A DNA stretch of 27,446 nucleotides from Boothiomyces macroporosus. Taxonomy: Eukaryota > Chytridiomycota > Chytridiomycetes > Rhizophydiales > Terramycetaceae. Below the pieces are notes generated by a model. It was not told the DNA's origin. It ran no database searches and saw only the letters and a program-made list of their open reading frames with translations. How positions within the stretch are numbered: position 1 is the stretch's first letter; every line of letters begins with the position of its first letter. The stretch covers positions 1-27,446 of the forward strand of contig JADGKB010000150.1 of the NCBI GenBank assembly GCA_027604185.1, read 5' to 3'. Made by a program: the position numbers and the translations under genes. Shown piece after piece: positions 5,619 through 27,446 of the stretch.

Positions 5619-5624
5619 TTTATT
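5619..5624 (-). terminator. Poly(A) signal AATAAA containing the stop of the BTB gene
   Basis: On the minus strand the last codon and stop, CAA TAA, followed by A give AATAAA, so the whole stop codon lies inside the hexamer. Confidence 0.7.
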
Positions 5625-7044
5625 GACTTGCTTGTATTTCAATCAACTCTTTTGTCCATTCGGCCATCTTGAAGTTATCTAATTAACGCAAACTTACCGT
5701 CGTCGCGTAGTTGATACGCTTTCTTGTTTACATCTATTTTGACTGGTGAGACACTCCTAGTAGACCCAACTCCCCACATTTTAAAATAGTCTTGATCAGC
5801 AATGCTATCCGTATTCTCAATATGAGTGCATTGATAAGGTGTTTTCATGGGTGCAACTATAAAATTCTTGTACTTTTCAAACAGCTGCAGAATATCTTGA
5901 TGAAACGTAAAGGACGGATTATGTGCTTCATGTATACAGCCCTTTTTAGCAAATACTTACAAAAGCTAATTCAAAAGGAGAAAACGGAGCAATCAGCCTC
6001 TCGCATTGTCTACATATTCCATTATCAGATGCTGTAGTTGGAAGTGGATGCTTGCAGCAGTTGTAGTAGTCGCTACACGCAAATTGCTGCTTGCACTCGA
6101 TACATTCCAGGTAATGCAAGTGTCCCCACACCCTCCAAAAGCAAGTTTCCCAGTCGCTACAAGATTGGAATGTGGCGACAATCCACTCGTTGATGTCAAA
6201 CGTTTCGTCTACAGTATGATGTCTAGATATATTACCAAATTTGTCTATAGTAGGTGTCTGACGTTCGCAAGCCATTTTCTTGTTGCTGAATACTTTATTA
6301 CACTTTTGGCAGCCGAATATCTTTGGTTTCTCACCATCCTGCACAATTTCTAAAAGTTTGTTAAAGTACAGCTGGCTCTTTATCTTGTCCTTTGGATCTA
6401 CTATTTCCGCGATATCATTTGGAGTAAAATAATGAACCAACTTTGCCAGTATTTGTGAATTTATACAACTAAAATCTATTGGGACTAGGTCAAGAAAATG
6501 TACCAGTAATGATGGAGTTGATATTCTCATAAGCATATCGTAAACACATCTCCTCCAGCTGTGCCATCTGCAAAAAGTTTGAACTGATGAGAATACTTAT
6601 CACTGTATGGTTTTCTAGTTTGATTTCCTGTTTCAAACAAAAATCCATCAACCATTCAAATACTTGAATATCTGAATGAACATCAATGTCATAAAACAAT
6701 GAATTTGAATCTTCATGCAGCACGGTATCAAAATACCTCATTTGGGATATCAGCATCTGCTTCTTGCAATAGAAATCACGTTTCACATTCCGTTGTTCGT
6801 CAAATACGTGTATCACTACGTCTTGCGGTGATATTGGAGTTGGATTAGGTCTGGGTTTGGAATCAACTCTCGCTGTTGCTGGTCGGATTGGTTTCCTTTC
6901 CTTTTTAGTTTGTTCTTCCTTTCTCCTTTCTTGCTCAACTACTTTTTCCAAGTACGAGAATCCCAGCACTGAAGCGAAAGGAAATGTGTCATTTGATGGC
7001 TGTTTATATGTAGGTTTTGATGTTTGAGGACGCGGTCTTTGCAT
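5620..7044 (-). CDS. SANBR (KIAA1841)-like BTB-domain protein with C-terminal Cys-rich domain
   Basis: Four exons (6504-7044, 5961-6484, 5698-5941, 5620-5678) separated by three 19-nt introns (6485-6503, 5942-5960, 5679-5697) give 455 aa. Residues 1-70 are polar and basic. A BTB-like domain follows at about 74-180, with DVVIHVFDEQRN, the pair MRYF, DIQVFEWLMDF and VISILISSNFLQM. These match the vertebrate protein SANBR as I remember it. After the first intron comes the family's Cys/His-rich part: CQKC at 239-242, CIEC at 308-311, CC-x-H at 323-326 and CRQC at 338-341, plausible zinc ligands. The SANT domain of the animal protein is absent. In animals SANBR restrains class-switch recombination, which cannot be its role here. 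It is probably a nuclear adaptor, by inference. Confidence 0.85.
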
Positions 7045-7183
7045 TTCAAGTTAGAAATTTTTCGAGACGCTCACGTCGACATTCCCAAATACAAACAAGC
7101 AAGATACTAATACTTACCTATACGATATGAATTTCAGTGGTGTAAATAACTACCTGTGGCTTTGAATTTTTTGCCTTGAAAAA

Positions 7184-8420
7184 ATGAAGTGGGAGGATTG
7201 CCTAGATAGAAAACTGAATTTAAATTTTGGATTGGACAACGTCTCGCAGTTAAAAGGGATTCCAAAATTACCGGAAACATCTCTACAAATCACAGAGGAA
7301 GAGGATTTTGGCTTGAACAATCTCTCGCTAAACCAAGATTTCAAAGCAAAGATTGTCGGAAAGAAAGAGTTGAATTCAAAGATTCTGGAAATTAAACTTG
7401 ATCTGACTGATTTGGAATGGAAACCGAAATCCGGAGATTCATTCGCAATCAAATGTCCAAATCCAAAAGTGTTGGTGGAAAGAATAATGCAAAGATTGGA
7501 CTACAATGACCGCAAAATTTCAACCAATTCAAAAGAAGGCCACTTGAATGGAACCAAGTTAGTTTCAGAGTTCCTACTGGGAGTGGACTTTTTTGATTTC
7601 CCAAAGAAAGCCTTCTTCAGAGTCTTGGCAGAGTACACCAACAACCAAACAGAAAAGAAGCAGCTGTATTATTTATCTAGTGCCATGGGTACCTTTAGCT
7701 AATTTAGGGTCTGCTCTTTATAAGGAATTCCGGACACTGTTCCCTAGCCTGTTGGATATTCTCAATCTAGTTCCTGAATGCAAGCCTCCGTTGAATGTAA
7801 TCTTGCAGCACTTGCCTGCATTGAAACCTCGCTTCTATTCCATTTCTGAATCGCCATTTAAGACTGGTAAAGGCGAAATCACGTTTGCGTTCAACTTGGT
7901 AGAAAATGAAGAAAAGAAATATTTGGGTATCTGCACTAGCTACCTGAATAGTAAAGAAATTGGAGACTATGTAGCAGTCTTTCCAAGGGCAGCACCAATT
8001 CCATTCAACCTAGTTCCGTTAAATGAAAAGAGACTCGTTTTAATTGCAAACGGAACTGGTATAGCACCATTTGTTGGGTTCCTGCAGGATTTAGAAAATT
8101 ATAATAATGTGGTAGTGGTTTATGGCCATAGAAATCACAAAGATGGAATATATGATCTGCCACAATTATGTGCAAACAAGACTCTGATTGAATGTTTTTC
8201 AAGAATAGAGAGTGAGTTCAAGTATGTCCAGGATGCTATGCCATCTCTAGACCTTTTGGATTCAATCATCTATGTGTGCGGCTCTGCACCAATGGGTAAG
8301 GGGGTCCATGATGCACTAGTAAAATACTACATGGACAAGAATTCATGTTCAATGATGGAAGCAATTGAATTTGTAAACAATTTGGTAAAGGAAGGAAAAT
8401 ATCACCGGGAACTGTGGTGA
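7184..8420 (+). CDS. Methionine synthase reductase-like FAD/NADPH oxidoreductase lacking the FMN domain
   Basis: Two exons (7184-7688, 7708-8420) around a 19-nt intron (7689-7707) encode 405 aa. It is the C-terminal reductase half of a diflavin enzyme. Visible motifs are the FAD site R210-F-Y-S213 and the pyrophosphate loop GICTSYL (242-248), the NADPH motif GTGIAPFVGFLQ (284-295), YGHRN (307-311), YVCGSAPMGKGVHDAL (357-372), and a terminal W405 of the kind that stacks on flavin. Sequence resembles MTRR (GDSF, NLVE, GTGIAPFxGF, the end KEGK...W) more than Tah18/NDOR1 or cytochrome P450 reductase. The protein starts where the FMN-FAD linker would be. Only 139 bp lie upstream before a divergent gene, so no flavodoxin exon is hidden there. 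It must take an FMN partner in trans or use another acceptor. Confidence 0.88.
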
Positions 8421-8425
8421 GGATC

Positions 8426-8431
8426 AATAAA
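8426..8431 (+). terminator. Poly(A) signal AATAAA, 5 nt after the reductase stop
   Basis: The TGA at 8418-8420 is followed by ggatc and then AATAAA. The convergent gene's stop is only 19 bp away. Confidence 0.65.
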
Positions 8432-8438
8432 AATGTAC

Positions 8439-8444
8439 TTTATT
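8439..8444 (-). terminator. Poly(A) signal AATAAA containing the stop of the RRM gene
   Basis: On the minus strand GAA TAA A gives AATAAA with the complete stop codon inside it. Confidence 0.7.
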
Positions 8445-10011
8445 CGCACATGTCCAATATTCCTTGTAGCATCCCCAGCCGATCATGTTCCATATCCCTG
8501 CGAATCATTTCCGCTCTCAAATCGTCATTTTCTTTCTTTAGTAGTTCATAAGAGTGCTTGTACTCATTGAACATTGGTTCTGTTTGGCATGCAATGTCCC
8601 TTGTGCTTTTATCAACTTTTAAAAGTAGCTTATCCAGCAAATCTTTGGCAGATTGTACTTGGCTGGCAATATCCTCTTGTTCATTCATGGGGGTCTCTGG
8701 CATTTCAAGTTTCGACGGTGAGCCAGGTATTGATTCATTAAAAAATGGAAACTTTTCCACACTGTCGCTGTAGAATGGAAACAGATTCTCTGCTGCTGGA
8801 GCCGCAAAGAAATTTGGCTCTTTTAGTTTTGGATAAAATGGCGATGACTGTACTGGGTAAGGAATGCTATCAAAAGCATTTTCGGTCCCTGTGGTTAACA
8901 TTGAGTACTTGATTCAGCAACTTTCTCTATCTCTGGCTCTTCGTAATCTAAATTTAACGCAAAGTTACTCTCAAGCGCAAACACCAAGTTCAAATTGGTT
9001 TTAGCATTGATGGTTTCAAGGGCCTCAGTCGCTAGTGTAGCATCTTGGTAATAGGCATAGCAGATTGCAGGTGAATATAATACCTTCTCGCATCCCGGAA
9101 AGCAGTTGAAAATTTCGCAAAAATCTTGGTAATTCAAACTTGGCGGAAATTCCGACACTGAAATTATGCAACTTGTAGGGCCATTAGATGGCGTGATGGT
9201 GCTATTGAATGGTCCAAATTCGGCTTTTGCAAAGCTGGCTTTCATCTGAGTCGTCTGATGTATAGTGTCAATGGCAAGCTTGGCGTTTTCTATAGTGTCA
9301 AAACAAATGAAGGAATAATCCGGATAAAACGCAATCTTTTGAAAGCCCGAATAAGTCATGAAAATTTTAAGCAGCGCGCCTTTGGGTTTGTCTGAAAATT
9401 TGGTCAGATAGATGGTTCTCTTTGGTTGCAGGTTGACAAAATCTGGGTTTCCTTCCCTAAATCCCGTATATTTATTTGGTTTTCCTTTGTTGGAGTAGTT
9501 TGAATGCAAGTTGGTGGTGTTGTTCAAGTCTTCAAGCGCAAATGTAGCATTTTCTGTTGTTTTGAAGCAGACCAAGGCGTGGTTTGTAAAGAATCTGCAA
9601 CTACTGTTATTTAGGCTTACTATTCGTATCCTGGATATTCTTTAATCAAATTAATGAATTCTTGGTCCGTGAATTGTGGTAACAAAGCGACATACAATGT
9701 AGGGTTTGGGGGAATTTGGATTGGTGGGTACTGATGAGTCACTGCCAAGTTCTTTGCATACGCTGCCAGCATTTCAGTCTACATTAGTTGCTCCTTACTT
9801 TCGTATGTATATAGTCAATTGCATTAGTGGCATCTTGTAAGCTCTTGAACGAGATGAAAACATACTCTGAATAGAAAGATATGCGTTCAAACCCAAGAAA
9901 CGCTTTAGCCATATTCTTTAATGATACTTTATCTCTATTTAGGTTTGTTACGTGAATGGTTGCTTTTGTATTTGCTTGAGCTGTGTTATGTTTGGCTATT
10001 GGCACCGACAT
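8440..10011 (-). CDS. Four-RRM RNA-binding protein with C-terminal coiled coil
   Basis: Four exons (9799-10011, 9621-9778, 8909-9600, 8440-8888) with three 20-nt introns (9779-9798, 9601-9620, 8889-8908) give 503 aa. Four RRM-like units follow one another: TIHVTNL...YVFISF in the first, TLYVALL...HALVCF in the second (split by intron 2), TIYLTKF...YSFICF in the third, and CIISVSEF...ICYAYY in the fourth. Each has a GF/GY/GC-x(2-4)-(F/L)-(Y/F) step after the first helix. RNP1 lacks the usual Gly-Phe aromatic pair, so RNA contacts may be unusual. The last exon is disordered (Phe/Pro-rich) and ends in a coiled coil (about 440-500) preceded by ACQTE. Without the last intron it would look like two genes. 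Target RNA is unknown. Confidence 0.85.
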
Positions 10012-10190
10012 TGTTCTATAAGAGTGTTGAATTTGGACAAACCCGCAAACGCGTCTGTCTTGCTTAAAACACAGATAAAATCAATGACACATCAATTATA
10101 CACTATAAAATGTGATGATGACTATAAATATTCCAAACATCACCTTTTATTTCGCGATTTGTTAAACTACAAAGAACGACCATTATTTAT
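10012..10190. other. Spacer between the 1558-aa orphan and the RRM gene
   Basis: 179 bp between two minus-strand genes, AT-rich with several TATAAA/TAAATA-like strings. It should carry the promoter of the RRM gene. Confidence 0.4.
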
Positions 10191-10191
10191 T
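10186..10191 (-). terminator. Poly(A) signal AATAAA overlapping the stop of the 1558-aa gene
   Basis: The third base of the TAA stop starts AATAAA on the minus strand. Confidence 0.7.
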
Positions 10192-13100
10192 TAAACGGGT
10201 GTTACTAATACTTTCATCCAATTCTTTAAAGAGTCCTCAAAAGGTGCTATAGAGTTGTATACGCGGTTCATTGATCCAAAAGTGTTATTCAAATCAAAGG
10301 TTGACTGAACGCGAATCATATCTGTTTCAGTTAATTTGGATTGCGATGTCAGTTTTATGACTGATATCTTGTCTCGAATTAGCACCAAAGCTTGACCTAG
10401 CGCAATGGGTTTTTTCAGCTGCTTCTCCAATTGCCGAAACGACATTGAAAGTGGTAAAAGGTGTTTGTGGACAGATACTAACCCTTGAATCCAACTAAAT
10501 AGCCTTTCATCAGGGTCTTTGGTATTAGGACGATAATCCAAGCAAAGTTCTGTGAGAACTTCTCCGAATAAAGAAGTATCAAGTAGAAATGCTTCCTTTA
10601 GAGCGGGATGTAGGGTTTCGACCACTATTGAAGGTATAGGCACTGTAATCTTCGCTCGAGATAAGATGCCGTCATTTAAACCATCAGCATAGACACTGTA
10701 GTAATTTACTTTTTCAATTTCTCTTGCAAATTTCAGATGTCTTACTGATAATTCCACAGCTTTCATCAATGCTTTTTTCATGATTGGGATGGATACTGGA
10801 GCGACTGTCTGTATGATCATTGATTCCCCTGGAGCCAAACTCTTTGAAATGTCTACAGTTAGGACCAAGTACCATAGATGGACTCATCCCTGAAGGACAA
10901 CATTTCAGATTTGTGTTCATTTCTTTTGGATAGGGTGTTCATTGATTTGGAAAGAATGCTGGCTTTTGGTCTTTTCACCACTTTCTCTGGTTCAGCAAGT
11001 TTTTCAACTTTCTGCTCCTTAGTGCTGCTTTCATCTGTTACTATTTTCAAGGACTGCAACGGGGTCGTTGGAGTTGAGATTGGTGCGCTTTCTTTTTCAT
11101 CTTGCTTCTTTTTCTCCATCAATTCATCAATTGCTTCTTTGATCGCCATTGGGTTGAATGACTTTCCTAGATTTAGCTCAACTTCTTCCTGGGAGGCAGC
11201 TTTGGGTATATTCTGCTTTATATCTACCTGAAATTCAGTATTGCTCGGAACTTTGACAATAGTAGCCGGCTTGATGCTTTCTCTTCTTGATTCAAATCTA
11301 TTCGGATTTCCAATATTCTGAGAGGATTCTCTATTGGGACTTGTAAAACTTTCAAAAGTATCGTTGATACTGTGTTCAAGAATTGGGGAACTTGCTCCAA
11401 GTTTCCTCCACACTGCATCCAAGTTCATTCCAAGAGGCTTTACAGGTGAGCTTTGTAATTCATCCAACTCTAACGCATCGCTTAACTCTTCTTGAATAGT
11501 TTGAGATATAACGCTTCCTCTTTGCGGTGTTACAAATATTTGTTCGTTTTTTCTTTTTGGAGTTGAATAGAAATCTTCTATTGAATTCAAATTAATGATC
11601 TTTGGCTCTTGCTCTGAAATTTCAGTTTCTTTGGTAACAGTAAGTCCTTCTGTAGGAGAACGTGGTTGCGGTACTTTAATAACTCCAGTGCTCGCATTAG
11701 ATTCTGGTTGATAATCCTTTTCAATCAATGGCTCAGGATTCTTTCCATTTTCAGCTGTAGATTGTTCATTCTGATCAAAGGGTATAAAAGTTTTAGATAA
11801 TGTATTGGTATAATCGCTATTAGGAAGCGAGATTGCAGTTACGATTTCTGGTTCCCCATTGTTGTTAATATCTGCAGTGCTAAATCCAATTGGGGTTTCA
11901 TCCGATTTCTCCATTTCAAAGTCGAGAATTTCTTTCTTTATGCGAACAGGACTGGATACAGGTGTTTTGATTATTGGCAAGTTAATCTTCTGTAGGCTTT
12001 GATTGAGGCTTTCTAAATATACTTTTTCAATATGTTCGATTTTCGATTTATGCTCAATCGGCATTGCTTGAGTTTTAGGAACAGTATCTTTAAAGTGCTC
12101 TTCCATTGGAGTCTGTAATATGGGAGAATCCAATGAATTGTTTTGCTCACCCATAATCTTTTCCTTGTTCTTTCTGAATTTTGATTCTTTCTTTCTTGCT
12201 TTTGAGTTCTCTTGATCAGCTTTAATCTTTTCAATGAGCTGTTCACTTGTATTTTGTTCGCCCAAAGTAATTTTTTGAAATTCAAGATTAAATAAATCAT
12301 CTAGTTGATTATTGAAATCCTTCTCTACTTGAGTTTGTACTTTTTCTTTTAGAATTTCGTTATCCAAATGTATCTCAAACAAGCTTTTCTCCTGCTCTAT
12401 TTGCATTTCTTGTGATTCCCTTGCCAGGCTTTTCCAGCTGTTTGGACTTTTAATTGGAGATGAAGGTCTTTTTGGAAGTGTAAGCGGTTCATTTACTTGA
12501 TTTTTAATTGAAGATCCCTTTGGTTGTTTCACTACCTCCTCTGCTTGACCTTCAGGATAACTATCTCCTTCAGTATCCAAATCTGATGGACGAGTTTCAA
12601 CTTTGGTATTTTTATACTTTGGAGAATACGATGAACTCGAATTCGGTCTGGATTGTGAATCAGATTTAACACTTTCTTGATTTGCTCTTGTTCCTTGGTC
12701 TAAAGATACAGAATTGAAACTATCTTGATTTACTCTTCCGTCTTTATCCACTCTCTTTCTTTTCGAACTATACTCTATATTTTCTTGGGAAACAGAATTC
12801 AAATGATCTAAATAAACAGAATCCACATTTCCTAGAGAATTTGAATGTTCTTGGGAAACAAAATTCCTTTTAGATTGATGTATTTTTTTCCCTTGATCTC
12901 CCATCAATGATTTTGATTTCGTTCTGGTTAACAGATCAGAGTCTTTAATCTTATAATCCAAGCATATATAATGATACTTTAATCCATATTCAAGTATATC
13001 TTGACATATTTTAACAATCCGATTGTCAAGATCATATTCATCCAAGGGCATAAAAAATTTGTTTTTTAAATCCAATTCATTTCCGAATATAATTCTATAA

Positions 13101-14906
13101 ATTTGCCTGTTCAAGTAGTAATCTCTTTTCAATAGCTGTTTTAAATATAATAATAGTGTAATTCTGGTATTGATTGTCTTTTTTCTCAGAATTGAAATGA
13201 TTTTCTTGTCAAACGGTAGTCCAGATATACAATACAGGACCGCTTTTTCTTGCAATTCAGTACTATTCAACAGAATTTTTTCATAGTACAGAGACAAGTA
13301 AGAGCACAAATAAGTCTTTTTAGTAGAGTGAGTGATGATGTAATGTATAAAGAGAGAGTATCCAACCATTTCATTTTCACTCTTGATATCTTGAATATAG
13401 TTACTGAAATGATATAAATACAAGCTGATTTCTCTTGTTGTTGATCCTTTAAAGTATAGCGAATACATTGCTAATTGCTTTGCTGCTTGTATTTGAATAT
13501 CTAATTCTTTATCCAATAGTGAAACCATTAATAACTGAATTTGATAATTATCCATAAACATCCCTAATATAGTAATACTAAAAGGTGTTATATTTTGAAT
13601 CAAGTAATTCTGAAGTTTAGTGTCGTAATTCTTGATGATTAATTGTTTCAATAATTTCCAATACTCCCTATGAATTGATAATAATCCAATCAATGGGATT
13701 ATATATTCACTCCCTATTGGTTTATATTTCCCTCGTATAATATCCATTAGTGCATCTATATTTTCTAGTTTTGAATGAATTACTGTTGAATTTAAGGATC
13801 GTTTGATGAGTGAAGAGTAGTAATTGCGAATTTCTTTCAAGATATCAATGCATACTGTTTTAAAACTGAATCCAAGTTCTACTATTTTAATTATTAGTAA
13901 GTGATCTTTTGCTAGTATAGATTCACGTGGCATCTTGTAGTCGTGGCCAAACAATAACAGTAATTGCTTTAATATGTGCATCAATTCTATTCTTCCCAGC
14001 TCTGATTTACTACTCTTGATGGCAGTTGTATTTTTATTGTATTGAGATGAACTGTCTGCCATGCTAGGATTGTAATGGCTGTCTACTATGCTGGGGTTGG
14101 ATGGAAGGTAATCAATAGAACAATCTGGTATCTCTGGTAGTTCATTAAAAGATAAATCTGAATAAATAAAATCGCTTTCTTCTACTGTATCTTGCAGAAT
14201 AATTGATAGCTTCTGCAACATTAGGTTCATGAAATTTTCTGAATAATGTTTTTGTTGCTTAATTTTCAAACAAAACAAATCCAGATATTTCCTTGTTTTA
14301 ATGAATCCGTCAATAATAATCTTGGTTTGTAGTTCATCCAACACTAATTCGTTGGTATAGAGACTCGTTAGTAAGTAATTACTACACAAAACAGTACACC
14401 AACTTTTCCATTTCCTTTTGGTAAATATTGCAGTAGTTTATTCCATTGATGAGGAGCAACAAGCAGTCGATTTTACTGGAATTTGTTTTCTTTGGTTTAA
14501 ATCGTGATTTGAGAGGTGGAATAACTTGTCGAAGAATTTGAATTATATCCTTGTTTATATCTTGAATATTCAACGTTTTAACTTTGCCATGTGATTCTTT
14601 AATCTCTTGATTGGACTCTTCTGTAGCCTCTTTAATAGTAGGATCGTGTTTCCCTTTGTGGCTATTATCGCTTCTGGTTTCTTTGTGGCTGGTATTGTGA
14701 TTCTCTTTATTGGCAGTATCTCCACTCTGTCTAGTCTCACTTGCATCTCCACTCTGTCTGGTCTCACTTGCATCTCCATTTTGTCTAATAGAGCCAGTAG
14801 TGTCTTTATCTGTCTTTAGTTCTACTATTTCTTTCTCTAGTTTGTGTTTGATTATTTCATTTCTTAATCTGTAAATATCCTTCAACTGTGATTCAAATTT
14901 TTCCAT
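10191..14906 (-). CDS. Large unrecognised protein: helical N-part, disordered middle, conserved-looking C-domain
   Basis: Three exons (14383-14906, 10873-14363, 10191-10852) joined by 19-nt (14364-14382) and 20-nt (10853-10872) introns encode 1558 aa. Residues 1-40 look like a coiled coil. A polar insert with a nine-residue repeat (RQSGDASET) comes next. From about 110 to 680 the chain is rich in Leu/Ile helices and could be an ARM/HEAT-like scaffold. About 680-1330 is a long disordered Ser/Pro/Glu/Lys region with many SP/TP sites (SSPVK, TPKRK, TPQRG), possible kinase targets. The C-terminal 220 residues are compact and globular (KKALMKAVELSVRHLKFARE, YADGLNDGILSRAK). I do not recognise any domain. 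It might be a nuclear or cytoskeletal scaffold, but that is a guess. Codon use looks more AT-rich than in neighbours such as Arp3. Confidence 0.82.
14718..14797 (-). repeat. 27-bp tandem repeat, about three units, in coding sequence
   Basis: Two near-identical 27-bp units (14718-14744 and 14745-14771) and a third diverged partial unit encode GDASETRQS-type repeats in the N-terminal insert of the 1558-aa protein. The unit keeps frame, so copy number may vary. Confidence 0.85.
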
Positions 14907-14927
14907 TTCTTTTTCAAAATCGCGAAT
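14907..14927. promoter_or_regulatory. 21-bp bidirectional start region
   Basis: Only 21 bp (ttctttttcaaaat, then cgcgaat) separate the divergent start codons of the 1558-aa gene and the PH-protein gene. Each promoter or 5' UTR must extend into the other gene's coding sequence. Confidence 0.65.
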
Positions 14928-17900: not shown

Positions 17901-20099
17901 CCAACGAGCAAGTACTTTTGGGCCGTTGGTGGGAGCACTACCTCCTGGGAAAAATGAAATTGCTCAGAATTCTTTGCTATCAGCTCAACAGACAAGAGCA
18001 CAGAAGGCTGTAAGTGCAGGTCCGTTGTTTGACAGTGTTACAAATGCAAAGAGCGATATTATACCAGTAACATTAATTAATTTAGCAAAACTCTCTTTTA
18101 GCGCAAGCGCAAGTCATGCAACCAAAACATGTGGGAGGCCCATTAATTGGCGGACTTCCGAAAACTGCCACTAATATTGCCGAAAACTCATTGCTGGCCC
18201 AATCAAATCAACCTGGAACAAAAATGCCCTCTTCAGGCCCACTGTTTGATATTGGAAATAACTCAAAGTCTACAAATATCACTCAAAACTCGTTATTAGC
18301 ACGGCCTGCCCATAATAACAAGCAGTCGCTCGGATCTGGGCCTTTCGTAACTGCAGGGACCAAATCATCGAATATTCAAAGCAATTCGCTTTTAGCCCAA
18401 ACGAATGCTCCTGTACCAAAAACAGTTCAATCTGGGCCGTTTATCAGTGGTGTATCGAATGCAAAGCAGGATGTGAATCTAATGGTAAAATTTTTTAATA
18501 CTAGTTGAGCGCAAGAGGTAGACAGCCGGAACCTGAACGGGTTGAAGAATTGTTCAATGAAAACTCTCTTGTCCAACGTATTAACCAAGCGCCAGGAAAA
18601 AAAGAGTTCTTGGCTGGTCCATTGCTAGGAACTGTGCAAGACCCGCATGATAAAAGGCATCACGACATTGGATTGCTTGGGCAAGTAGATAGACGTCAAA
18701 GAGAAAAGGAGTTGAAGAAACAAATGGGTGGTGCCCCACTTGGTATCCAAAATATGCAAATCAGCTCTGCCAATTTACAGGACCATACCATTGTACAAAA
18801 GAAGCCTGAATTACATGGAGGGCTCATGGCTGAAATGAACAGGATCAAGCAAGAAAAGGAAATGTATAAAAAGCGTAACAATGCTGGTGAAATTCTAGTG
18901 GACTATAATTTCACAGATGAAAAGCCAAAGCTACATGATGGATTGTTTGCTGAAATGGACAGGCGCCAACAAGAACGAGAGCTATTCCGTAAACACGGCG
19001 CGAACCCTACTGGGCAATTGCTTACTGGTTTGGGTCCTGCTCCTGGGATGGTTGCTGGTGGTGCGATGCCAGGATTTGTTGGATATGTACAACCTCCTCC
19101 GTAAGTCTTTTCTAACGTAGAACACAAACCCAAACAGATATCAATGTATTTGTTGGAAAAGTAAATCCAATCCTTGAGCAAATGACTCTGCTGTTGCAAG
19201 GGTCGGTCAGACAGCCTAACCCGATGTTGATCCAAACTATGCTAAATTACATTTCGCAAATGAGTACACTTGTCGACCAGCTGCATCAGCCTGCACAAAA
19301 TCTCTCAGTGCCAGCGATTTACGCCGAAAATAGAAGATCAGTGTCTCCAGCTCCGAATGCAAATCCATTCTCTCTTCCAAATATTAATTGGAAAACTGGT
19401 GGATCTTCTACTGCTTCGTCGACCTACCTTAGTTCTGCTGAATCTGACATTCACAGTTCCGAAGAGAGATCAAAAGCTAGCAGTGGAACGGAGAGTAACC
19501 ATGAAGATGATGGTTCAGATAGTGGTACAGAAGAGACGCGGTCCAGTCTTGGAAGCGTTTCGGAATCTGGATCGGAAGAAAGTGAAGATGAACAGCCTCG
19601 TTTCCCAAAACCAAAGTCTGTTTCAACTGATTACACTAGCAATTCTGGGTCTGAATCAATTACAGACTCTTCTGCTGCTACAGATTCTAAAGGTGACACC
19701 AGCTCTGAGGGATCTGTTTCGGATGAATCGGCTGACGAACCATTAGGCTTAAAAGACCAGCGTGCACCGACACCAGCATTTGAATCGATAAATCCAACAT
19801 CAAGACCTTATCTTGGAATGATGCCTTCGCAGCCCACTTATCCACAAAAGAACGTGAAGGCTACTAAAAAAAAGTCTAAAAAGGCTACAGATAGTGATGA
19901 AGGAAGTGTAAGTGAAGAGTCCGACAGCAGTGAAGGAAGTGTCAGCGAAGAGTCAGAGACGGGTGAAGAATCTGAAAGTGTAGGTAGTAAAAGTGAAGAA
20001 AGCCAGTCTGAAATCAGTCGCAACCGTGTCACTAGTGATGAAGGGAGTGTAAGCGAATCTGGAACTGAAGACGGAAGCCAAAGTGAAGTTTCCAAATAA
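14928..20099 (+). CDS. Caf120/Skg3-like split-PH-domain protein with NSLLxQ...GPL repeat array
   Basis: Nine exons (14928-14934, 14957-15523, 15572-17508, 17529-17720, 17741-17845, 17866-18066, 18086-18484, 18505-19100, 19121-20099) give 1660 aa. Introns are 22, 48, 20, 20, 20, 19, 20 and 20 nt. After a charged N-terminus, the PH domain (about 134-290) has FYYCGFVYKL, WWMELWGPVLNLWKV and NHWIAAIRLAMFE. A second domain follows (about 295-600), including WKQYHVVVTSK, as in the CCR4-NOT-associated yeast proteins Caf120 and Skg3. From about 752 to 1136 roughly a dozen repeats of NSLLxQ-x(n)-GPL/GPF occur. Three related HxGLxAEMxRxxQE units come after them, then a stalk and an acidic Ser-rich tail with EGSVSEES repeats. 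The family call is from memory; cortical or mRNA-decay function is inferred. Confidence 0.85.
14935..14956 (+). other. 22-nt intron after a 7-nt first coding exon
   Basis: The coding part of exon 1 is just ATG AGT G. Removing gtaagtag...aaaaaaag (22 nt) puts it in frame with exon 2. Exon 2 has no ATG of its own before the PH domain, so an upstream start is needed. A longer acceptor ending at 14986 (52 nt) is also in frame and cannot be excluded. Confidence 0.7.
15524..15571 (+). other. 48-nt intron containing an in-frame TAA, within the PH domain
   Basis: The frame before and after is the same, and a single in-frame TAA at 15562-15564 interrupts it. A GTAAG donor at 15524 and gctaatcgccag at the 3' end define a 48-nt intron. 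Its branch motif is that TAA. This rejoins the PH domain, giving PDEL-ASFC. Confidence 0.72.
17250..18700 (+). repeat. Diverged coding repeat array (NSLLxQ ... GPL), about 12 copies
   Basis: Repeats of roughly 30-40 codons share a core NSLLAQ or NSLLGQ and a second core (A/S)GPL(L/F) or GPF about 10-18 residues later. First cores begin near 17251, 17410, 17532, 17625, 17744, 17869, 17965, 18089, 18184, 18289, 18382 and 18562. DNA identity between units is low, so the protein motif, not the DNA, has been kept. Four of the units have an intron directly before QNSLL. Confidence 0.88.
19890..20065 (+). repeat. Acidic EGSVSEES coding repeats
   Basis: Three copies of gaaggaagtgt(a/c)ag(t/c)ga or gaagggagtgtaagcga encode EGSVSE within an acidic Ser/Glu tail. 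They are likely casein-kinase-type phosphorylation substrate by composition. Confidence 0.8.
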
Positions 20100-20100
20100 A
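20095..20100 (+). terminator. Poly(A) signal AATAAA overlapping the stop of the PH-protein gene
   Basis: AAA TAA A: the hexamer includes the full stop codon at 20097-20099. Confidence 0.7.
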
Positions 20101-20111
20101 ATTGCATGTTT

Positions 20112-20117
20112 TTTATT
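20112..20117 (-). terminator. Poly(A) signal AATAAA overlapping the stop of the quinone oxidoreductase gene
   Basis: On the minus strand TGA followed by ATAAA gives AATAAA starting at the last base of the stop. It sits 11 bp from the opposing gene's signal. Confidence 0.7.
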
Positions 20118-21130
20118 CAATATTTAGATCCAGTGTTCATCTTGATTACAACTTTCCCCCAAGTTTCTCTGTTTCCCAAGGCTGCCAGTGCTGAGGGTAC
20201 TGAATCAACGCCGTGATACACTTTATCAAACACTGTTGCCTTCAACTTTTTTTCCGTTAAAAGATTCAATATTCCGCCCCAGACCTTAGGCACAGTTGCA
20301 GGATCATTGATGGTGGTGCCGCCCCAGAAAACTCCAACAACAGAGCATTGCTTAAGCAAAAGTTTGTTCATTGCAATCTTTTCTATTGCCCCGCCTGCAA
20401 ATCCTACGATGAGAATTCTGCCATTGAATGCGACAATCTTTAAAGACTGATCCACCAAACCAACTGGGTCATAGATGACATCGCATCCTTTCCCTTTAGT
20501 AACTGCTTTAATTTGCTGAATCCAATCCTTATCTTTGTAGTTTATTCCAACATCAGCTCCAAACTTTTTACAGATATCCAGCTTGTCTTCAGTTGACGCA
20601 GTCGCAATGACAAATGCCCCAGCAGCTTTGGCCATTTGGACAGCCATCAGTCTATATTAATAGCAGGCTTACCCAACTCCACCTGCTCCTGCGTGAATGA
20701 GGACAGTTTCTCCCTTGCGTACTTTACCACGTTCAAATATTGCCAAATAACTGGTTGGAGCAGTAATGTAAAGAGTTGAAGCTTCCTCGAACGACAATCC
20801 GTCCGGGATGTGTAAAACAGGGTTTGATTTAACATTCACTTTGATGTACTCGCTGTAAGCCCCTTGCGATCCACCAAATACACGATCGCCAACTTTGAAC
20901 CCAGAAGAAGTCGATTCAGCAACAACTCCCGCAAATTCATATCCAGCAATCCAAGGGAATGGAGGTTGAGTCTGGTACTTGCCTTGAACTTGCAAGATAT
21001 CAAAAAAGTTGGCTGCCGATGCTACTACTTTAATAACCAGTTGATCCTTTTTCCCATCCAGCGTTGGAATTGGCAAATCAACGATTTTCAACTCATCTAC
21101 GGACTGAATTAGCTTACAGTACCTTGACAT
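20117..21130 (-). CDS. NADPH:quinone oxidoreductase-like protein (zinc-independent MDR family)
   Basis: Two exons (20673-21130, 20117-20651) around a 21-nt intron (20652-20672) encode 330 aa, the usual family length. The intron falls inside the Rossmann NADPH-binding loop, and splicing restores HAGAGGVGLMAVQMAK near residues 146-161. Other family features are NFFDILQVQGKY, the entry GYEFAGVV, GDRVFG, GCDVIYDPVG, GRILIVGFAGG and VVGVFWGG. Zinc-binding cysteines of classical alcohol dehydrogenases are absent, so it is a quinone reductase/zeta-crystallin-type enzyme that probably reduces quinones or enones with NADPH in the cytosol or mitochondrion. It resembles the QORL2 and bacterial NADPH:quinone reductase branch. 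It shares a 372-bp divergent promoter region with QPRT. Confidence 0.92.
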
Positions 21131-21502: not shown

Positions 21503-22399
21503 ATGTCGTCTTTGGAACATTTGCTACCTACGAATTGGAAGAAACAAGTCGCATCTTGGCTGGATGAAGATACTCCGACCTTTGACTACGGCGGTTTCGT
21601 GGTTGGTGATGAGGAAAAGGTAGCTTATTTATTTGGTAAAGCAAATGGAGTGTTGGCTGGTGTACCATTTTTCAATGAAGTCTTTAATCAAATCGGATGC
21701 AAGTAATTTCAGTCTAATGATAGAGTAGAATGGTATTTGAAGGAAGGAGACGAGTTTGAACCAGGGCCAACTGGAAGGCTAAAAGTTGCAAAAGTAACTG
21801 GGCCAGCTAGAAAACTGTTGTTGGGAGAAAGACCTGCTCTCAACATGCTTGCTAGAGCTTCCGGTATCGCAACTAGAGCCCGTGCATTGTTAAAACTCAA
21901 GCAAGAGCATAAATGGGATGGATTAATTGCTGCTACGCGCAAAACTACTCCGGGCTTTAGAATAGTCGAAAAGTATGCAAGTTTGGTTGGAGGTGTTGAT
22001 CCGCATCGTATGGATTTATCTTCAATGATTATGTTGAAAGACAATCATATTTGGGCAACCGGCTCGATTACAAATGCAGTTAAACAAGCACGTTCTGTTG
22101 GTGGTTTTGCATTGAAAATTGAAGTAGAATGCAGATCGGAGGCAGAAGCTGATGAAGCCATTCTAGCTGGTGCCGATATTATCATGTTGGACAACTTTGA
22201 CGGTCCTGGTATTCATGCTTGCGCTGCTAATTTGAAATCAAAATGGGCTGGGAAACACAGATTCCTGATTGAAGGATCAGGCGGATTGACTTTGGAAAAT
22301 GCTGCTCCATTCATGTCTCGTGAAGTGGATATTTTAAGCTTTGGCTGCATTACTCAGGGTGTCCCTCATATTGATTTCTCTCTAAAAGTGGATCATTAA
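21503..22399 (+). CDS. QPRT: Quinolinate phosphoribosyltransferase (NAD synthesis)
   Basis: Two exons (21503-21702, 21724-22399) around a 21-nt intron (21703-21723) give 291 aa, close to the human enzyme. The ATG at 21503 is the first Met that matches the family start. The enzyme converts quinolinate and PRPP to nicotinate mononucleotide, CO2 and pyrophosphate, the step that joins de novo NAD synthesis to the common pathway. Active-site residues are visible: R139-K140-TTPGFR, H161-R162, K172 in MLKDNH, E202 in VEC, D223 in MLDNF, and the phosphate loop EGSGG (250-254). The intron splits codon 67, restoring IGCKVEWYL. Its presence argues that the organism can make NAD from tryptophan or aspartate or scavenge quinolinate, which is informative if it is a parasite. 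Confidence 0.97.
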
Positions 22400-22403
22400 T
22401 AAA
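22398..22403 (+). terminator. Poly(A) signal AATAAA overlapping the QPRT stop
   Basis: The last two bases of the TAA stop are the first two of AATAAA. Confidence 0.7.
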
Positions 22404-22439
22404 CCATCTCTTTCCCAGAGAATAATTTCAAAGGATTGC

Positions 22440-22445
22440 TTTATT
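22440..22445 (-). terminator. Poly(A) signal AATAAA, 3 nt after the Arp3 stop
   Basis: On the minus strand TAG is followed by ccg and then AATAAA. Confidence 0.68.
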
Positions 22446-22448
22446 CGG

Positions 22449-23851
22449 CTACAAGATTGAACCAAAGACTTTGTTGTAACGTGCAATACTTGGGCCATAT
22501 TCTTCATATTGCGCTTTGGTGTGGCAATAGCTATAAAAGTCAGGCTAGTATTAACAACAATTACAGTATCTGCCAATAATGATCCACCAAACCAGACTGC
22601 GTATCTTTGTTTGCGGTGTGATACGACGTTAACCTCGATTTGCCTGGCTTTGATTTGAGCCTCAGACGACAAGTTGGCTTGCGAAACTTGCTGTGAATGA
22701 GCAAGTCTAGCATCCACCATCTTTTTAATGTCCCTGTTCAAACGACGAGCAAAGTCCTTAAACATAGTAGATCCACCAGAGAGCACAATATGCTGGCATT
22801 AAAACTAAAGTACTTTATAGAGGCCACGTCTAGTATCAATAGGGCAACTTTGGATAACTTGATCAACAACATCTGGTAGAGGAGTCAAGAAGTCGGAGCT
22901 GGCAATTTCAGGATTGAAAAAGATTTCAGGTCCCAAAAATCTTTCAAACCCTACATCAACATGATATGGCTAGTTTTAAATGCAAATTACCTTCTTGGTT
23001 AATGCGTTAATGAATTCATGTCTCTTGATCCACTTGTCGCCCTCAGTCTCATACTTTCTGAATTCTTTGACAATATCTGGGCAAACATAGGAGTAGGTTT
23101 CCTTGATTCTTTTTGCTACTTCAAGAGATTCTTCTGGAGGAATAGAATTTTCTCGTTCACGCAACAATTGCTGTACAAAGTAAGTGATATCTCTTCCGGC
23201 GATCGGAATGTGTTTAATTGAAGATCCGATTACATAGCCATCCGCCTATATTAAGAGTGCACTTACGACCGGGATAACATGGGTTACGCCATCACCAGAA
23301 TCAATAACGGTTCCAGTCAAGGTTTGCTCGCCTTTTCCCGAAGTCCAAGATGCGGCCAATGCCAACACAGCCTGCACTGCAATATACAACCCTTTCACAC
23401 CAAAAGATTCAAAAAAGATCTCTGCAGTGTATTCTCTATTCTCTGGTGCATTTAAAGGCGCTTCAGTCTACGTAAGATTAAAGTACCAATAAGAAACAAT
23501 GATCTTCTGGCTCACATCTTAGATATTCGAAAATACACGCTTGATGAAACTTTTCCATCAAGTCCCAGTTCTCAACTTGGGCGTGACGCACTGGGTAGCT
23601 GACAGCGTACGTTTTAGAGTTCGCTAATGCTTCGTCTCCGATAAAATAATCCAAATCTTCAATTCCTTTTTTAGAACTGCCTCCAGCTTGATTTCCGGTC
23701 CTGTTTGAAGCTGCTTCTTTGGTTGCGATCGCCGTAGGAATGATGTATTGGGGATCATTGTTCCCAGCATATCCCATCTTTGTATATCTGATTAATCACC
23801 GCCTTACCCTGTTCCGTTATCGATAACCACAGTTGGAAGTCCCAGAGTCAT
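22449..23851 (-). CDS. ARP3: Actin-related protein 3 (Arp2/3 complex)
   Basis: Seven exons (23808-23851, 23487-23787, 23267-23467, 22991-23245, 22814-22969, 22565-22792, 22449-22544) with introns of 20, 19, 21, 21, 21 and 20 nt give 426 aa, near the usual 418. Removing the introns restores family landmarks exactly: [17 protein letters not shown] at the N-terminal phosphate loop, [36 protein letters not shown] (phosphate loop 2), [20 protein letters not shown], and [14 protein letters not shown] followed by a Tyr/Pro-rich end. Arp3 pairs with Arp2 to nucleate branched actin in endocytosis or crawling. Introns 1 and 3 lie at the nucleotide loops. Because the family is so conserved, this gene is the strongest proof of the tiny introns. 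The clathrin light chain gene lies 59 bp upstream on the same strand. Confidence 0.98.
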
Positions 23852-23906
23852 TTAGATTGCAAAGTTGAAGCCACCTCAAAATTTCGAATAAGCACAGATA
23901 AAACGG

Positions 23907-23912
23907 TTTATT
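23907..23912 (-). terminator. Poly(A) signal AATAAA overlapping the clathrin light chain stop
   Basis: The last two bases of the TAA stop start AATAAA on the minus strand. Confidence 0.7.
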
Positions 23913-24662
23913 AGACTTTAATTCCAGGAGCGTCCTTGTCGTTCTTTAGCGAAACTAGGACTTGCTTGAATCTGGAGGTATCCGCCTTGACCACTTTCTC
24001 TTTCTTCTTGTCGTCCTTCTTGTCTTGCTTCTTTTGGCTTCCTTCTACTTGCTTCAACACACGTTCCTATATCAGTCAGTAATTACCCAGACGGTGCCAG
24101 AAGTGTTATCATCCCGTTGAGCAATCAGATTCTTTTCCAACTCCTTGTTTCTTGCAATGGCTTTTTGCTTCTTTTCATTGTACTCGGCATAGAACCTGTC
24201 AAGCGCTTCTTTGGCTTCATTCAAGATGCGGCCATGTTTGTCTTTGGCCATTTCATCCCTTTCCACAACTTTTCTGTCAAATTCTACTTGCCAATCTAGC
24301 CGAGCTTGCGATTGTACTTCTTGCACTGGTTCAGGGATGGATTGAAATACGCTTTGCTGGACCGCATCTTGTTGGAAATCGTTTTGCGCGGTAAAATCCA
24401 CTGGTTGTTGTACCGTTCCGAAATCTACTGGAGCTTGAGCAGTTTGCACAAGAGACGGAGCAGGCTCAAACACTGGTTGTTGCGCAGGTGTATCGCCAAA
24501 CAGTAAATCATCCGTTGGTGTTTCCCACTGCTTATTAGCAGGGGAAGTTTCGAGAGGGTTTCCAAATAATGCTGCGTCTGCTCCCAATATTGCCTGTTCC
24601 CTTGCCAAGAAATCCGCAGTTGGATCTGAATCTGCATTTGTAAAGTCTCCGAAATCTGCCAT
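23911..24662 (-). CDS. CLC1: Clathrin light chain
   Basis: Two exons (24087-24662, 23911-24066) around a 20-nt intron (24067-24086) encode 243 aa. The N-terminus is acidic and has DPTADFLAREQAIL, the light-chain signature. A Gln/Pro/Phe-rich disordered stretch runs to about 115, followed by the long heavy-chain-binding helix (about 118-190: LDWQVEFDRKVVERDEM, EALDRFYAEYNEKK). The intron falls in the conserved TSGTVW/ERVLKQV block, and splicing restores it. A Lys/Asp-rich segment and a short C-terminal helix (DTSRFKQVLVSLKND) complete the family layout. It regulates clathrin lattice assembly on coated vesicles. It is adjacent to Arp3, its functional partner in endocytosis, and 73 bp from the divergent Sip5 gene. 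Confidence 0.95.
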
Positions 24663-24735
24663 GTTGATTTAAAAAGGGAAAGCCACTCCAAATTTTATCG
24701 CATTCATTTTAAGCCACCAGTTTCCAAACCTTCAA

Positions 24736-25859
24736 ATGGGACATGGGAACAGCAAAGATGAGAAGGAGGTGATTGTAGATTTCGGAAAGCTAAATCCCTA
24801 CGGAATTTTATATCCCTTGAAGAACGACTATGATAAGGATGCGCTACACAAGTTCATTCTCAGCAGACGGCTTTGTCCATTTTACCCTGGAGTAGATTCA
24901 ATTGACGACTTTACAATCAAAGAGACGCAGCCGATATCTCAGAAATCTACTTCGTTATCGAGCTTGAAGCACAAGAAACAGTCGGTGGAAAATAACAGTA
25001 ATACCAGTTTGGATGAGTTGAAGAGAGATCCGATAGAATGTCCAATCTGCTTTTTGGTAGGAATAGTCCTAATGTAGTATTACCCGAAAAATATCAACTA
25101 CACTAGGTGCTGTGATCAACCAATATGTACAGATTGTTTTCTCCAAATTAAACGCCCAGAAACAACATTTGATCCCGCAGAGTGTCCTTACTGCTGCCAA
25201 CCACATTTTGGAGTGGTTTATAACGCATTTCATTCGTCCGGGTTTAAGCAGAGATATTCAAACGATGGGAGCACAAGAAGAAAGAGCATTAGTCATCAAC
25301 ATCCGACTGTAGTAACATCTGGTAAGTCATATATTTGTATTTGATTATTGGCGAATAATCTTTTGATTTTATTACTTATGCTAGATGATTTGCGTCCAGA
25401 TTGGCAGCAAAGGAAACAAGAAATGGAAAGAAAACGTCAATTAGAAGAACAAAGAGCTGCTCTTAATCATGCCAGGCGCAGACAAATCCAAGTGTTGACG
25501 TAATTCCATCTTAACTTAGTGAAGCTCAATTAGCAAATGCAGCAATGTAATAATATCTCTGATTATTAGTTTGGCAGCAAATTTGTATGAAAGACATGGT
25601 GAAAATGATAATAGAATAGCAAGAGAATTAGCGAGAAATGCAAGAGCTTCTTCAGACCCTTCAGCCGCCTATCTCCAAGGTTATTTTGATACTAACAGCA
25701 GCGTATAGATATCTTGGTGCGGATATTGAAGAGTTGATGATAATGGAAGCTATGAGAAGATCTATGCAAGAAACTACTAATAACGAAGATTCTCAGCAGG
25801 AAGATTTAGATCGTGTTCTTCAAGAATCAGCTCAAGTAAATTCATCAGAAGAAAACTGA
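24736..25859 (+). CDS. SIP5: Sip5-like zinc-binding (RING-like) protein
   Basis: Six exons (24736-25056, 25078-25321, 25385-25499, 25520-25546, 25570-25679, 25699-25859) with introns of 21, 63, 20, 23 and 19 nt give 325 aa. The zinc motif is [21 protein letters not shown]124-x2-C127, C143-x2-C146, split by intron 1 directly after ECPICFL. A basic coiled segment (about 190-230), and near the C-terminus [15 protein letters not shown], follow as in fungal Sip5 proteins. The N-terminus MGHGNSK fits N-myristoylation (Gly2, Ser6). Yeast Sip5 links the Snf1 kinase to the phosphatase Reg1/Glc7. That role here is inference. Intron 5 has a GTTATT donor, the only one in the window not starting GTA, but it is required for frame. 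Confidence 0.93.
25322..25384 (+). other. 63-nt intron with an internal perfect hairpin (Sip5 intron 2)
   Basis: A GTAAG donor and ATGCTAG acceptor, with no other AG in between after the donor. A perfect 7-bp stem (gattatt / aataatc) with loop ggcg lies at 25343-25360. It is the longest intron of the window and shows an in-frame TGA. Confidence 0.85.
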
Positions 25860-25873
25860 ATCATGCATGTTAA

Positions 25874-25879
25874 AATAAA
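25874..25879 (+). terminator. Poly(A) signal AATAAA, 14 nt after the Sip5 stop
   Basis: The TGA at 25857-25859 is followed 14 nt later by AATAAA, the largest such gap among genes here with a clear signal. Confidence 0.6.
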
Positions 25880-25905
25880 GTGTTTTTAGATAAAAATTAT
25901 ATGTA

Positions 25906-27446
25906 TTATTGTGCATTCGTATACTTTAGTCTATTATACTCTTGGGTAAGCTTGAAACAATCCTTTTTCAATCTATACAGTCAACATTGGAAACTTACTC
26001 TGATATTTCAACGTTTCTATCTGTTTGAAGATAGAAGCTACTTCCAATAGTATTACAAAGCAATTTTTGTATTACCAAGACCAATTCATGATTAAGCAAT
26101 GTAAGCTCTAATACTTTAAGTCTCTCTTGGAGCTTATATGGAGGGCTTTTTGTACATGCGGGAATATCATTCAAATTCTTTCCTAGATATTCAAATAGAA
26201 CCTCAACGACTGACGTAATTTTCTCGAGGAGCGAATCTAGTGTATCTATAGATTGAATGTTGATTTGTTCTAATTTAACAATTACATCCTGTCTACCAAA
26301 CTGGGACAGGTGTGCTAACTGTATTATTTTTGAACGCAATAATTTCAAAGCTTCTTTGCGACTGGATGATTTTGGATATACGACTTCTGATATCACAGAA
26401 TTTTTTACAATACTTTCTGGGGATTCAGACAATACGACACCTGTGGAAAGGATTTTTGGTGCTGGTCCATCAGTGATTGTTTGCGATCCCACGGATGTAC
26501 TCTGGACAAACCACTTATCTTTCAAGTAAACTAATTCATCTGTCTGGCAATATTGATGATACTTATCAGCTTGCCTATGATGAAACTCATCAGCAAAAAC
26601 AAATGGGCTTGAACTTGCATAAGGAAGAAATGAATAAGAACTTTGACGACTGGTTTGGGTATAACTCGATTGCGATCTATTCTTGTTAATAGATTTTGTG
26701 TCCTTCTCTCCCAGTTGATTGTTGAAACTGGATATTAACTTGTTTTCCATAATAACCTTTTCATGGACACATTCATGGGATATCAACTTTGGCATTTCGC
26801 TTTCTGATTCTAACGAAAGAATTGGATTATAGCTTTCTCCTAGTGAAACACTATTTTGCTCATGTCTAATATAACTAGTATTATGCAAATTTGAAATTTC
26901 TTTGCTTTCAAGTGTTATCGAATATTGATGTTCAAAATCGTTTTTCAAATTGTGATCACCGACTAAACTTTCTAAGCTCTTTAAACTGTTGAAATTTCCT
27001 CGTTGAATAGAAGTAGCTTTGACCTGATTGGATTTAATTGAGTTGTTTAAGGAAAACATATTTCCTTCACTTTTACACCAATTGGATTCCTTTTTCTGCA
27101 ATTCGTTTATCCTCTCTAGTAGAACTTCACCATATTCTTTTGGTGATGTGGTAATATTTGAATTAAATGATCCGGAAAATGGAGTTCCTTTTTGAATAAA
27201 CTCAAAAGACTCCTCCGAGATTTCGTTAACTCCACTATCTACTTTCGACAATTCTTCAGTATTGACATTCTGGAAGATATGATCATTTTCTGAGTTGGTA
27301 TTATTTTCTCCACAAACTTGGTCCTTTACTGATACCTGTATGCCCAAACTATTAATAGAAACAGTGCACTGTGTTGCACTATCTATTCCAATATAATTGA
27401 AATATGTGGTTCTAACAAGTCTTCTCAGCCACATATGATTGACCTG
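25906..27446 (-). CDS. Ser/Asn-rich protein with C-terminal coiled coil (5' end uncertain, reaches right edge)
   Basis: The main exon (25999 to the edge) is open to base 27446. A Met at 27432-27434 could be the start, but the frame continues upstream, so the gene may be partial. A 26-nt intron (25973-25998) is proposed because it replaces the stop at 25995 with 22 further codons that extend a coiled coil (ELKKDCFKLTQEYNRLKY). Without it the protein is 479 aa from that Met. The first 300 residues are polar and disordered; a motif YCQTDE and later SVGSQTITD occur around residues 295-325. The C-terminal 150 residues form helices (RSKIIQLAHLSQFG, LLEKITSVVEVLFEYL). I do not recognise the family. 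A spindle-pole or cytoskeletal coiled-coil protein would fit, as a guess. Confidence 0.65.
25973..25998 (-). other. Candidate 26-nt intron extending the coiled coil
   Basis: GTAAGT donor, a TTGAC branch-like motif and TATAG acceptor. It overlaps the ORF stop and joins in frame to a helical 22-codon tail ending at 25906. It is longer than the typical 19-21 nt and less certain. Confidence 0.6.

Follow-up and report, generated by a model that had tools for sequence, protein, structure and literature searches.

Candidate ultra-short spliceosomal introns in ten genes of a contig of the chytrid Boothiomyces macroporosus and across its sampled genome

Small GT...AG segments in ten genes of the window

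The genome of Boothiomyces macroporosus, a soil chytrid belonging to the Rhizophydiales and therein to the family Terramycetaceae, is represented by an assembly whose 216 contigs add up to 15,203,306 bases (15.2 Mb). The window analyzed here is one of these contigs, C150, at its full length of 27,446 nucleotides (nt). Its genes are repeatedly interrupted by very small segments that begin with GT, end with AG, and are probably introns. In total, 31 introns were resolved in 10 genes, 29 of them checked by hand and 2 less sure; 27 of the 31 are 19 to 21 nt long, and the others measure 22, 23, 48, and 63 nt. An earlier note on this DNA had counted 32 introns, 27 of which were 19 to 21 nt, as compared with 27 of 31 here.

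The hand-checked set (29 introns in 10 genes, the segments having been selected as GT...AG) consists of 8 introns of 19 nt, 13 of 20 nt, 6 of 21 nt, and single introns of 23 and 63 nt. After removal of all 29 segments the frame is open, and each of the 10 spliced frames is open (that of the repeat-protein gene from position 15646 onward). Retention of a single segment shifts the frame in 22 of 29 cases, leads to the reading of a stop in 22 of 29, and is neutral in none. Nine of the 29 (6 in Arp3 and 1 each in the QPRT, quinone oxidoreductase, and reductase genes) are counted as backed by alignment, because their junctions are gap-free against a solved relative. Support for the other 20 consists of frame plus splice motifs.

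The Arp3 gene (22449-23851, minus strand) carries six tiny introns: intron 1 (20 nt, 23788-23807), intron 2 (19 nt, 23468-23486), intron 3 (21 nt, 23246-23266), intron 4 (21 nt, 22970-22990), intron 5 (21 nt, 22793-22813), and intron 6 (20 nt, 22545-22564). Removal of exactly these six, as the earlier note had called for, gives a single open frame of 426 residues, which aligns at 646.7 bits with the solved bovine Arp3 chain 1k8k_A, with no gaps at any of the six junctions. In a protein search, the spliced product matches a public B. macroporosus protein with 100% identity over 96% of the query. That public model (408 residues) is missing intron 1 together with exon 1, and it already skips the other five; thus, tiny introns are implicit in the public annotation. 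The next relative, from Terramyces sp. JEL0728, is 92% identical over 93% of the query. Its model ends in TVIQH just past the point at which intron 6 starts, and it resumes exactly at the point at which intron 4 ends, which suggests that the Arp3 genes of the two fungi have these intron sites in common. The public Arp3 models of both Boothiomyces and Terramyces serve as a warning that gene models in such genomes lose exons.

Three other hand-checked introns have gap-free junctions with solved proteins: a 21-nt intron in the QPRT gene (21703-21723 within 21503-22399, plus strand; compared with 3c2r), a 21-nt intron in the quinone oxidoreductase-like gene (20652-20672 within 20117-21130, minus strand; compared with 4eye), and a 19-nt intron in a gene like that for methionine synthase reductase (7689-7707 within 7184-8420, plus strand; compared with 2qtl, which is methionine synthase reductase). 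FAD and NAD domains are present in this reductase-like protein, and a search at E 0.001 matched no flavodoxin domain. A 20-nt intron of the clathrin light chain gene (24067-24086 within 23911-24662, minus strand) was also checked by hand, and residues 8 to 240 of the spliced protein correspond to Pfam Clathrin_lg_ch. The SANBR-type BTB gene (5620-7044, minus strand) contains three 19-nt introns (5679-5697, 5942-5960, and 6485-6503), each supported by frame and motif, and its spliced protein likewise reaches a Pfam family; the BTB_SANBR match (residues 76 to 168) lies upstream of the intron at 6485-6503.

The Sip5-like gene (24736-25859, plus strand), whose tentative name follows the earlier note, has five introns. 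Those of 21 nt (25057-25077), 20 nt (25500-25519), 23 nt (25547-25569), and 19 nt (25680-25698, with the 5' end GTTA) are supported by frame and motif; the fifth, of 63 nt (25322-25384), is supported by frame, has the 5' end GTAAGT, and contains no internal AG other than that of GTAAG. The spliced protein matches no Pfam family at E 0.001. Among the other genes to which the earlier note extends the rule, QPRT, the reductase, and the oxidoreductase are backed by solved relatives at their junctions, and the clathrin light chain, BTB, and Sip5 genes by frame and motif.

In the remaining genes the support is again frame and motif. The RRM gene (8440-10011, minus strand) has three 20-nt introns (8889-8908, 9601-9620, and 9779-9798), and the large gene at 10191-14906 (minus strand) has one of 20 nt (10853-10872) and one of 19 nt (14364-14382). 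The repeat-protein gene, which starts at 14928 on the plus strand, has five introns of 20 nt (17509-17528, 17721-17740, 17846-17865, 18485-18504, and 19101-19120) and one of 19 nt (18067-18085). It also holds the two less certain introns, both outside the hand-checked set: a probable 22-nt intron at its 5' end (14935-14956), a finder call for which a 52-nt alternative is possible, and a probable 48-nt intron (15524-15571), called by the finder and read by eye, which takes out one in-frame TAA. The four introns between 17509 and 18085 of this gene share one position within a tandemly repeated protein unit, directly before the word (Q/G)(N/S)SLL, a position at which other repeat copies lack an intron. 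This pattern could reflect either introns carried along by repeat duplication or their loss from some copies.

Intron lengths across the genome sample

Lengths beyond the window were surveyed in a sample consisting of the window and 20 stretches of 10 kb (227,446 bases, or 227 kb). The gene finder, which was written for this analysis, scores coding sequence and splice motifs under a flat prior over intron lengths of 12 to 150 nt; as decoys, the splice motifs were reversed or reverse-complemented. With the flat prior, 148 introns were called, 106 of which are 19 to 22 nt (20 of 19 nt, 50 of 20 nt, 21 of 21 nt, and 15 of 22 nt); every other length has at most 2. The corresponding values with decoys are 2 of 78 (reversed) and 1 of 51 (reverse-complemented). 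The earlier note had proposed a genome-wide length histogram as a check; the calls in this sample form a sharp peak at 19 to 22 nt. When lengths up to 400 nt are allowed, 98 of 162 calls are 19 to 22 nt (decoys, 1 of 112 and 1 of 80). With GT and AG alone and a milder penalty, 43 of 207 calls fall in this range, compared with 3 to 10 (of 159 to 190) for seven decoy dinucleotide pairs.

The same excess is seen in a count made without gene models. The motif GTA(A/C)...YTAAYN(1-3)YAG occurs in the 227 kb at 108 sites of 19 to 21 nt versus 8 in the reversed sequence. By length, these counts are 36 versus 5 at 19 nt, 50 versus 1 at 20 nt, and 22 versus 2 at 21 nt; at 22 nt they are 7 versus 7. In the whole genome, GTAATTN(2-32)CTAAYN(1-4)TAG has 359 matches versus 88 for the reversed pattern, and among the 100 of the 359 matches that were listed, 84 are 19 to 22 nt and 88 are 18 to 23 nt. 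Four of the listed 100 duplicate another match, 42.6 kb away in contig C2 or 53.7 kb away in contig C10, and are not independent, because in the two pairs compared the 2 kb around the site is identical. These 2-kb pairs (L041-L044) are 293001-295000 and 335597-337596 in C2 and 141001-143000 and 194657-196656 in C10, each 100% identical; contig C20, with two equal-scoring matches, may hold a third. Such pairs within contigs could have arisen either by recent duplication or as an artefact of assembly.

Once trained on length, the finder called 252 introns spread over 109 genes. Of these, 236 are 17 to 25 nt, with 52, 105, 49, 26, 3, and 1 at 19 through 24 nt, respectively. All 236 tiny calls are distinct in sequence, and the window and all 20 sampled stretches contain some of them. 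Their density is about 1,038 per Mb of sampled sequence, which by extrapolation would amount to about 15,800 tiny introns in the whole genome. Within the window, 1 of 26 calls of 17 to 25 nt was judged false; it lies at 21097-21117, where the frame encoding the oxidoreductase N-terminus is open. The finder also missed 4 of 29 tiny introns, each of them belonging to the Sip5-like gene.

Longer introns are in no clear excess, because calls of more than 25 nt total fewer than with either decoy and single length bins rise above only one. With the flat prior there are 37 such calls versus 72 and 48 with decoys, and with lengths to 400 nt there are 61 versus 108 and 76. Motif sites of 23 to 100 nt number 162 versus 193 in the reversed 227 kb. 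The bins that exceed one decoy are 41 to 80 nt (19 versus 28 and 12) and, for the GTAAG motif, 41 to 60 nt (7 versus 5). It is possible that the genome has a small class of longer introns. A 56-nt intron called by the finder in the Slu7 gene was rejected: it leaves 11 residues missing relative to solved SLU7, which are restored by a 23-nt intron that was identified by eye.

Splice signals and encoded splicing machinery

The anatomy of the introns was compiled from the 236 tiny calls. Following GT, the 5' site has A (0.95), A (0.65), T (0.45), and T (0.56), with G at +5 in just 0.19, and the commonest word at +3 to +6 is AATT (43 of 236). The most frequent branch words are TTAAT (66), CTAAT (39), CTAAC (22), and TTAAC (22), and position -3 is T in 0.65 and C in 0.25. 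As placed by the motif, the branch A lies at nucleotide 14 (94 introns), 15 (99), or 16 (25), so that 193 of 236 have it at 14 or 15; its distance to the intron end is 4 to 7 nt in 223 and 5 or 6 nt in 192. Between the branch and the 3' end there is too little space for a pyrimidine tract. U12-type introns are marked by a 5' site ATATCC or GTATCC and the branch sequence TCCTTAAC. At the level of the consensus, which does not address individual introns, the Boothiomyces signals differ from these, with a GTAATT-like 5' site and YTAAY-type branch words. G is found at +5 in both longer introns of the window, as GTAAGT in that of 63 nt (25322-25384) and as GTAAGG in that of 48 nt (15524-15571), as against 0.19 of the tiny ones, a contrast drawn from two cases only.

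The search for splicing components covered U1, U2, U6, U2AF65, SF1, Slu7, and SNRNP27K. A U6 gene with a normal ACAGAGA box is present on contig C59, and two U2 genes, on contigs C80 and C178, have the same normal GUAGUA branch-binding region. The U2 genes (L030, 1501-1693, and L031, 1501-1691) are nearly alike in their 5' part and clearly different in the middle and at the 3' end. The U1 gene on contig C34 scores 68.8 bits, slightly below the cut-off of 69.5, and it starts with the normal 5' sequence AUACUUACCUG. An altered U1 fitted to the lost +5 G is thereby ruled out, and the weak +5 G is without a matching change in U1, since the U1 5' end is canonical.

Among the proteins, U2AF65 scores 230.7 bits in a six-frame search, below the whole-protein cut-off of 310.3; after splicing, it matches RRM1-RRM2 of solved U2AF65 at 212 bits and gives a separate UHM match. 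Genes for SF1, Slu7, and SNRNP27K are also present in the assembly, and all four genes themselves hold tiny introns according to the length-trained finder. Loss of U2AF65, SF1, or Slu7 is thus excluded by the finding of the genes. Loss of SNRNP27K is excluded in the same way, and the protein retains the methionine that corresponds to residue 141 in the alignment with the solved chain. In the available text of PMC10581693, this methionine is tied to a preference for A at +4 rather than to +5, and its retention agrees with the frequency of +4 A (0.65) in the B. macroporosus introns. A route for short introns through SPF45 is described in PMC8363638, as far as its available text goes.

Interpretation and comparison with other short introns

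Together, the sequence evidence argues, with a probability of roughly 0.94, that the segments are ordinary U2-type spliceosomal introns, held throughout the B. macroporosus genome at a near-fixed length of 19 to 22 nt. The GT...AG segments occur at frame breaks, their lengths form a genome-wide narrow peak below 30 nt, a branch motif complementary to U2 lies at a set distance, and small nuclear RNAs (snRNAs) and proteins of the spliceosome are encoded. These ends, branch motif, length peak, and splicing genes lend support to the view in the earlier note that spliceosomal introns of this size are present in a fungal nuclear genome.

If instead insertion or deletion errors in assembly or sequencing had broken the frames, the segments would be chance GT...AG stretches used as patches. 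Such errors do occur in draft assemblies, and identical repeated stretches lie inside contigs of this one; errors would not, however, produce GT, AG, and YTAAY at a fixed spacing or an excess of 108 sites over 8 counted without a gene model, and 9 of the 29 hand-checked junctions sit in gap-free alignments to solved relatives. Assembly error, which the earlier note had named as a finding that would overturn its reading, is on these grounds exceedingly improbable. We consider it very unlikely as well that the segments are real but remain in the mRNA, with translation passing over them (bypassing), or that some other non-spliceosomal process deals with them. Translational bypass of short segments exists in some yeast mitochondria, and removal of the segments is deduced here from DNA. 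The segments, however, lie in nuclear genes, have GT...AG ends and a branch motif complementary to U2, and belong to a genome with the tested splicing RNAs and factors.

Several results weigh against the interpretation as near-fixed tiny introns. The first run in the window, with GT...AG alone and a heavy intron penalty, found seven introns, three of them 19 to 21 nt, and missed Arp3; the motif scores were added to the finder after this run. The splice motif model was seeded with 12 introns of the window, every one of them 19 to 21 nt, with length itself left unscored in the flat runs. In addition, the branch score includes a correction for how many positions were tried, which penalizes longer introns by up to about 1.4 nats, a penalty that both motif decoys share. 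The strict pattern GTAAGN7TTAATNAG is not enriched (8 versus 14 reversed), and neither is its 23-nt version (0 versus 10); both strict patterns (GTAAG..TTAATNAG) require the rare +5 G together with a rare branch spacing. Both the splicing of the segments and the position of the branch A (from the YTAAY motif) are read from genomic sequence. Finally, the 48- and 63-nt introns of the window look real, and thus the size limit is not absolute.

These two credible longer introns (2 of 31) also favor the idea that tiny introns are a minority and that many ordinary longer ones are invisible to the method. So do the single longer-length bins above one decoy (41 to 80 nt, and 41 to 60 nt for GTAAG) and the recovery by the flat-prior finder of fewer than half of the tiny introns obtained with length training (106 versus 232 at 19 to 22 nt). 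Yet the calls of more than 25 nt total fewer than with either decoy, the motif sites of 23 to 100 nt are also fewer than in reversed sequence, and the longer call in Slu7 resolves to 23 nt; a hidden majority of longer introns is therefore very unlikely.

On the interpretation of the segments as ordinary U2-type introns, they may have shrunk from longer ones. U1 would read GUA(A) and U2 the YUAAY motif, the intron would be defined as one small unit with a lariat loop of about 14 to 15 nt, and the AG beside the branch would be used with neither a pyrimidine tract nor scanning. Length would be limited from below because the 5' end bound by U6 and the branch bound by U2 need a certain distance between them, and from above because dispensable sequence has been lost. 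The weak +5 G (0.19), together with the unchanged 5' end of U1, suggests that pairing beyond +4 is relaxed, which would perhaps allow the intron to bend so tightly. A tentative extension, which we think rather more apt to fail than to hold, is that Boothiomyces, and perhaps the Terramycetaceae, splice by measuring distance: the 5' end would be held by about four bases, with +5 G lost and the U1 and U6 partners canonical, and the branch A would be near-fixed at 14 to 15 nt with an adjoining AG and no pyrimidine tract.

Introns this short have been described elsewhere, as the earlier note had mentioned for the chlorarachniophyte nucleomorph and some ciliates. PMC10245619, in its available text, gives 18 to 21 bp for nucleomorph introns, 16 to 17 nt for those of mikrocytids, and 15 to 16 nt for those of heterotrich ciliates. 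The statement that introns of 19 to 21 nt are close to a physical limit needs qualifying: they are near the shortest known, but 15- to 17-nt introns have been published in heterotrich ciliates and mikrocytids (PMC10245619). The chlorarachniophyte nucleomorph has nearly the same lengths as Boothiomyces and more than 800 introns in about 300 genes, many for a reduced genome (PMC10245619). However, it is the relic nucleus of an endosymbiont, whereas the window belongs to a chytrid and the Boothiomyces introns to a 15.2-Mb nuclear assembly of a fungus that has the tested standard factors.

Stentor coeruleus resembles Boothiomyces in having tiny introns, a near-fixed branch position, and conservation of all snRNAs and most proteins (PMC9505925, available text). 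Its introns are 15 to 16 nt, with the branch A at nucleotide 10 to 11 (10 in 15-nt introns) and no strong branch consensus (PMC9505925). The same paper connects the tiny size of these introns with the lack of a plug motif in Cwc25 and with an Isy1 N-terminus that is not conserved. The fungal introns differ from those of the ciliate in peaking at 20 nt, with a branch A that probably lies mostly at 14 to 15 and a clear YTAAY, and thus do not have the heterotrich dimensions. The commonest Stentor intron, GUAAUUUUUAUAUAG, has U at +5 (PMC9505925), as in Boothiomyces. This shared +5 U may be regarded as a lead rather than a test; if splicing is indeed distance-measured, it would mean that two distant lineages have come to one solution to the tight-lariat problem.

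Mikrocytids also have very uniform tiny introns, of 16 to 17 nt (PMC10245619). They are parasites in which 17 to 19 spliceosomal proteins have been identified, with 224 introns in M. mackini, as against a density in Boothiomyces of about 1,038 per Mb sampled for the tiny introns. Paramecium introns are likewise many, short, and GT...AG, but they are longer and spread more widely, with medians of 24 to 25 nt (P. bursaria, median 24 nt, range 15 to 100 nt; PMC12862383, available text). Microsporidia, which are relatives of fungi, have relatively short introns (PMC10245619); however, theirs are few and their spliceosome is reduced, whereas Boothiomyces has many.

For fungi in general, PMC8476143 describes intron lengths as diverse and, using long introns to illustrate the point, as falling short of the extremes known from other groups; two Chytridiomycota are counted, and its available text names no ultra-short fungal case. 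The words Boothiomyces, Rhizophydi..., and Batrachochytrium are absent from its main text. PMC5364385, as available, gives intron counts and no lengths, and PMC13391722 mentions introns once, also with no lengths. No report of tiny introns in Boothiomyces or another chytrid appeared in the open-licence literature by title or abstract start; an earlier report may exist, since the search covered open-licence papers and mostly their titles and abstract starts.

Ultra-short introns have been named from relic nuclei, ciliates, and reduced parasites (PMC10245619, available text). The present sequence evidence supports the placing of this known kind of intron in a new setting, namely a fungal nucleus, where the introns would occur genome-wide with the tested conventional splicing factors. 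As tiny introns appear to be the rule in such a fungus, small size need not mean a reduced spliceosome. Once confirmed by RNA, Boothiomyces would provide a fungal system for the minimum size of an intron, for U2AF use in introns that lack a pyrimidine tract, and for the role of pairing at +5.

Apart from the introns, a secreted-looking protein is encoded at 632-2116 (minus strand), and the end of the contig (1-266, same strand) appears by eye to contain the beginning of what is likely its tandem paralogue.

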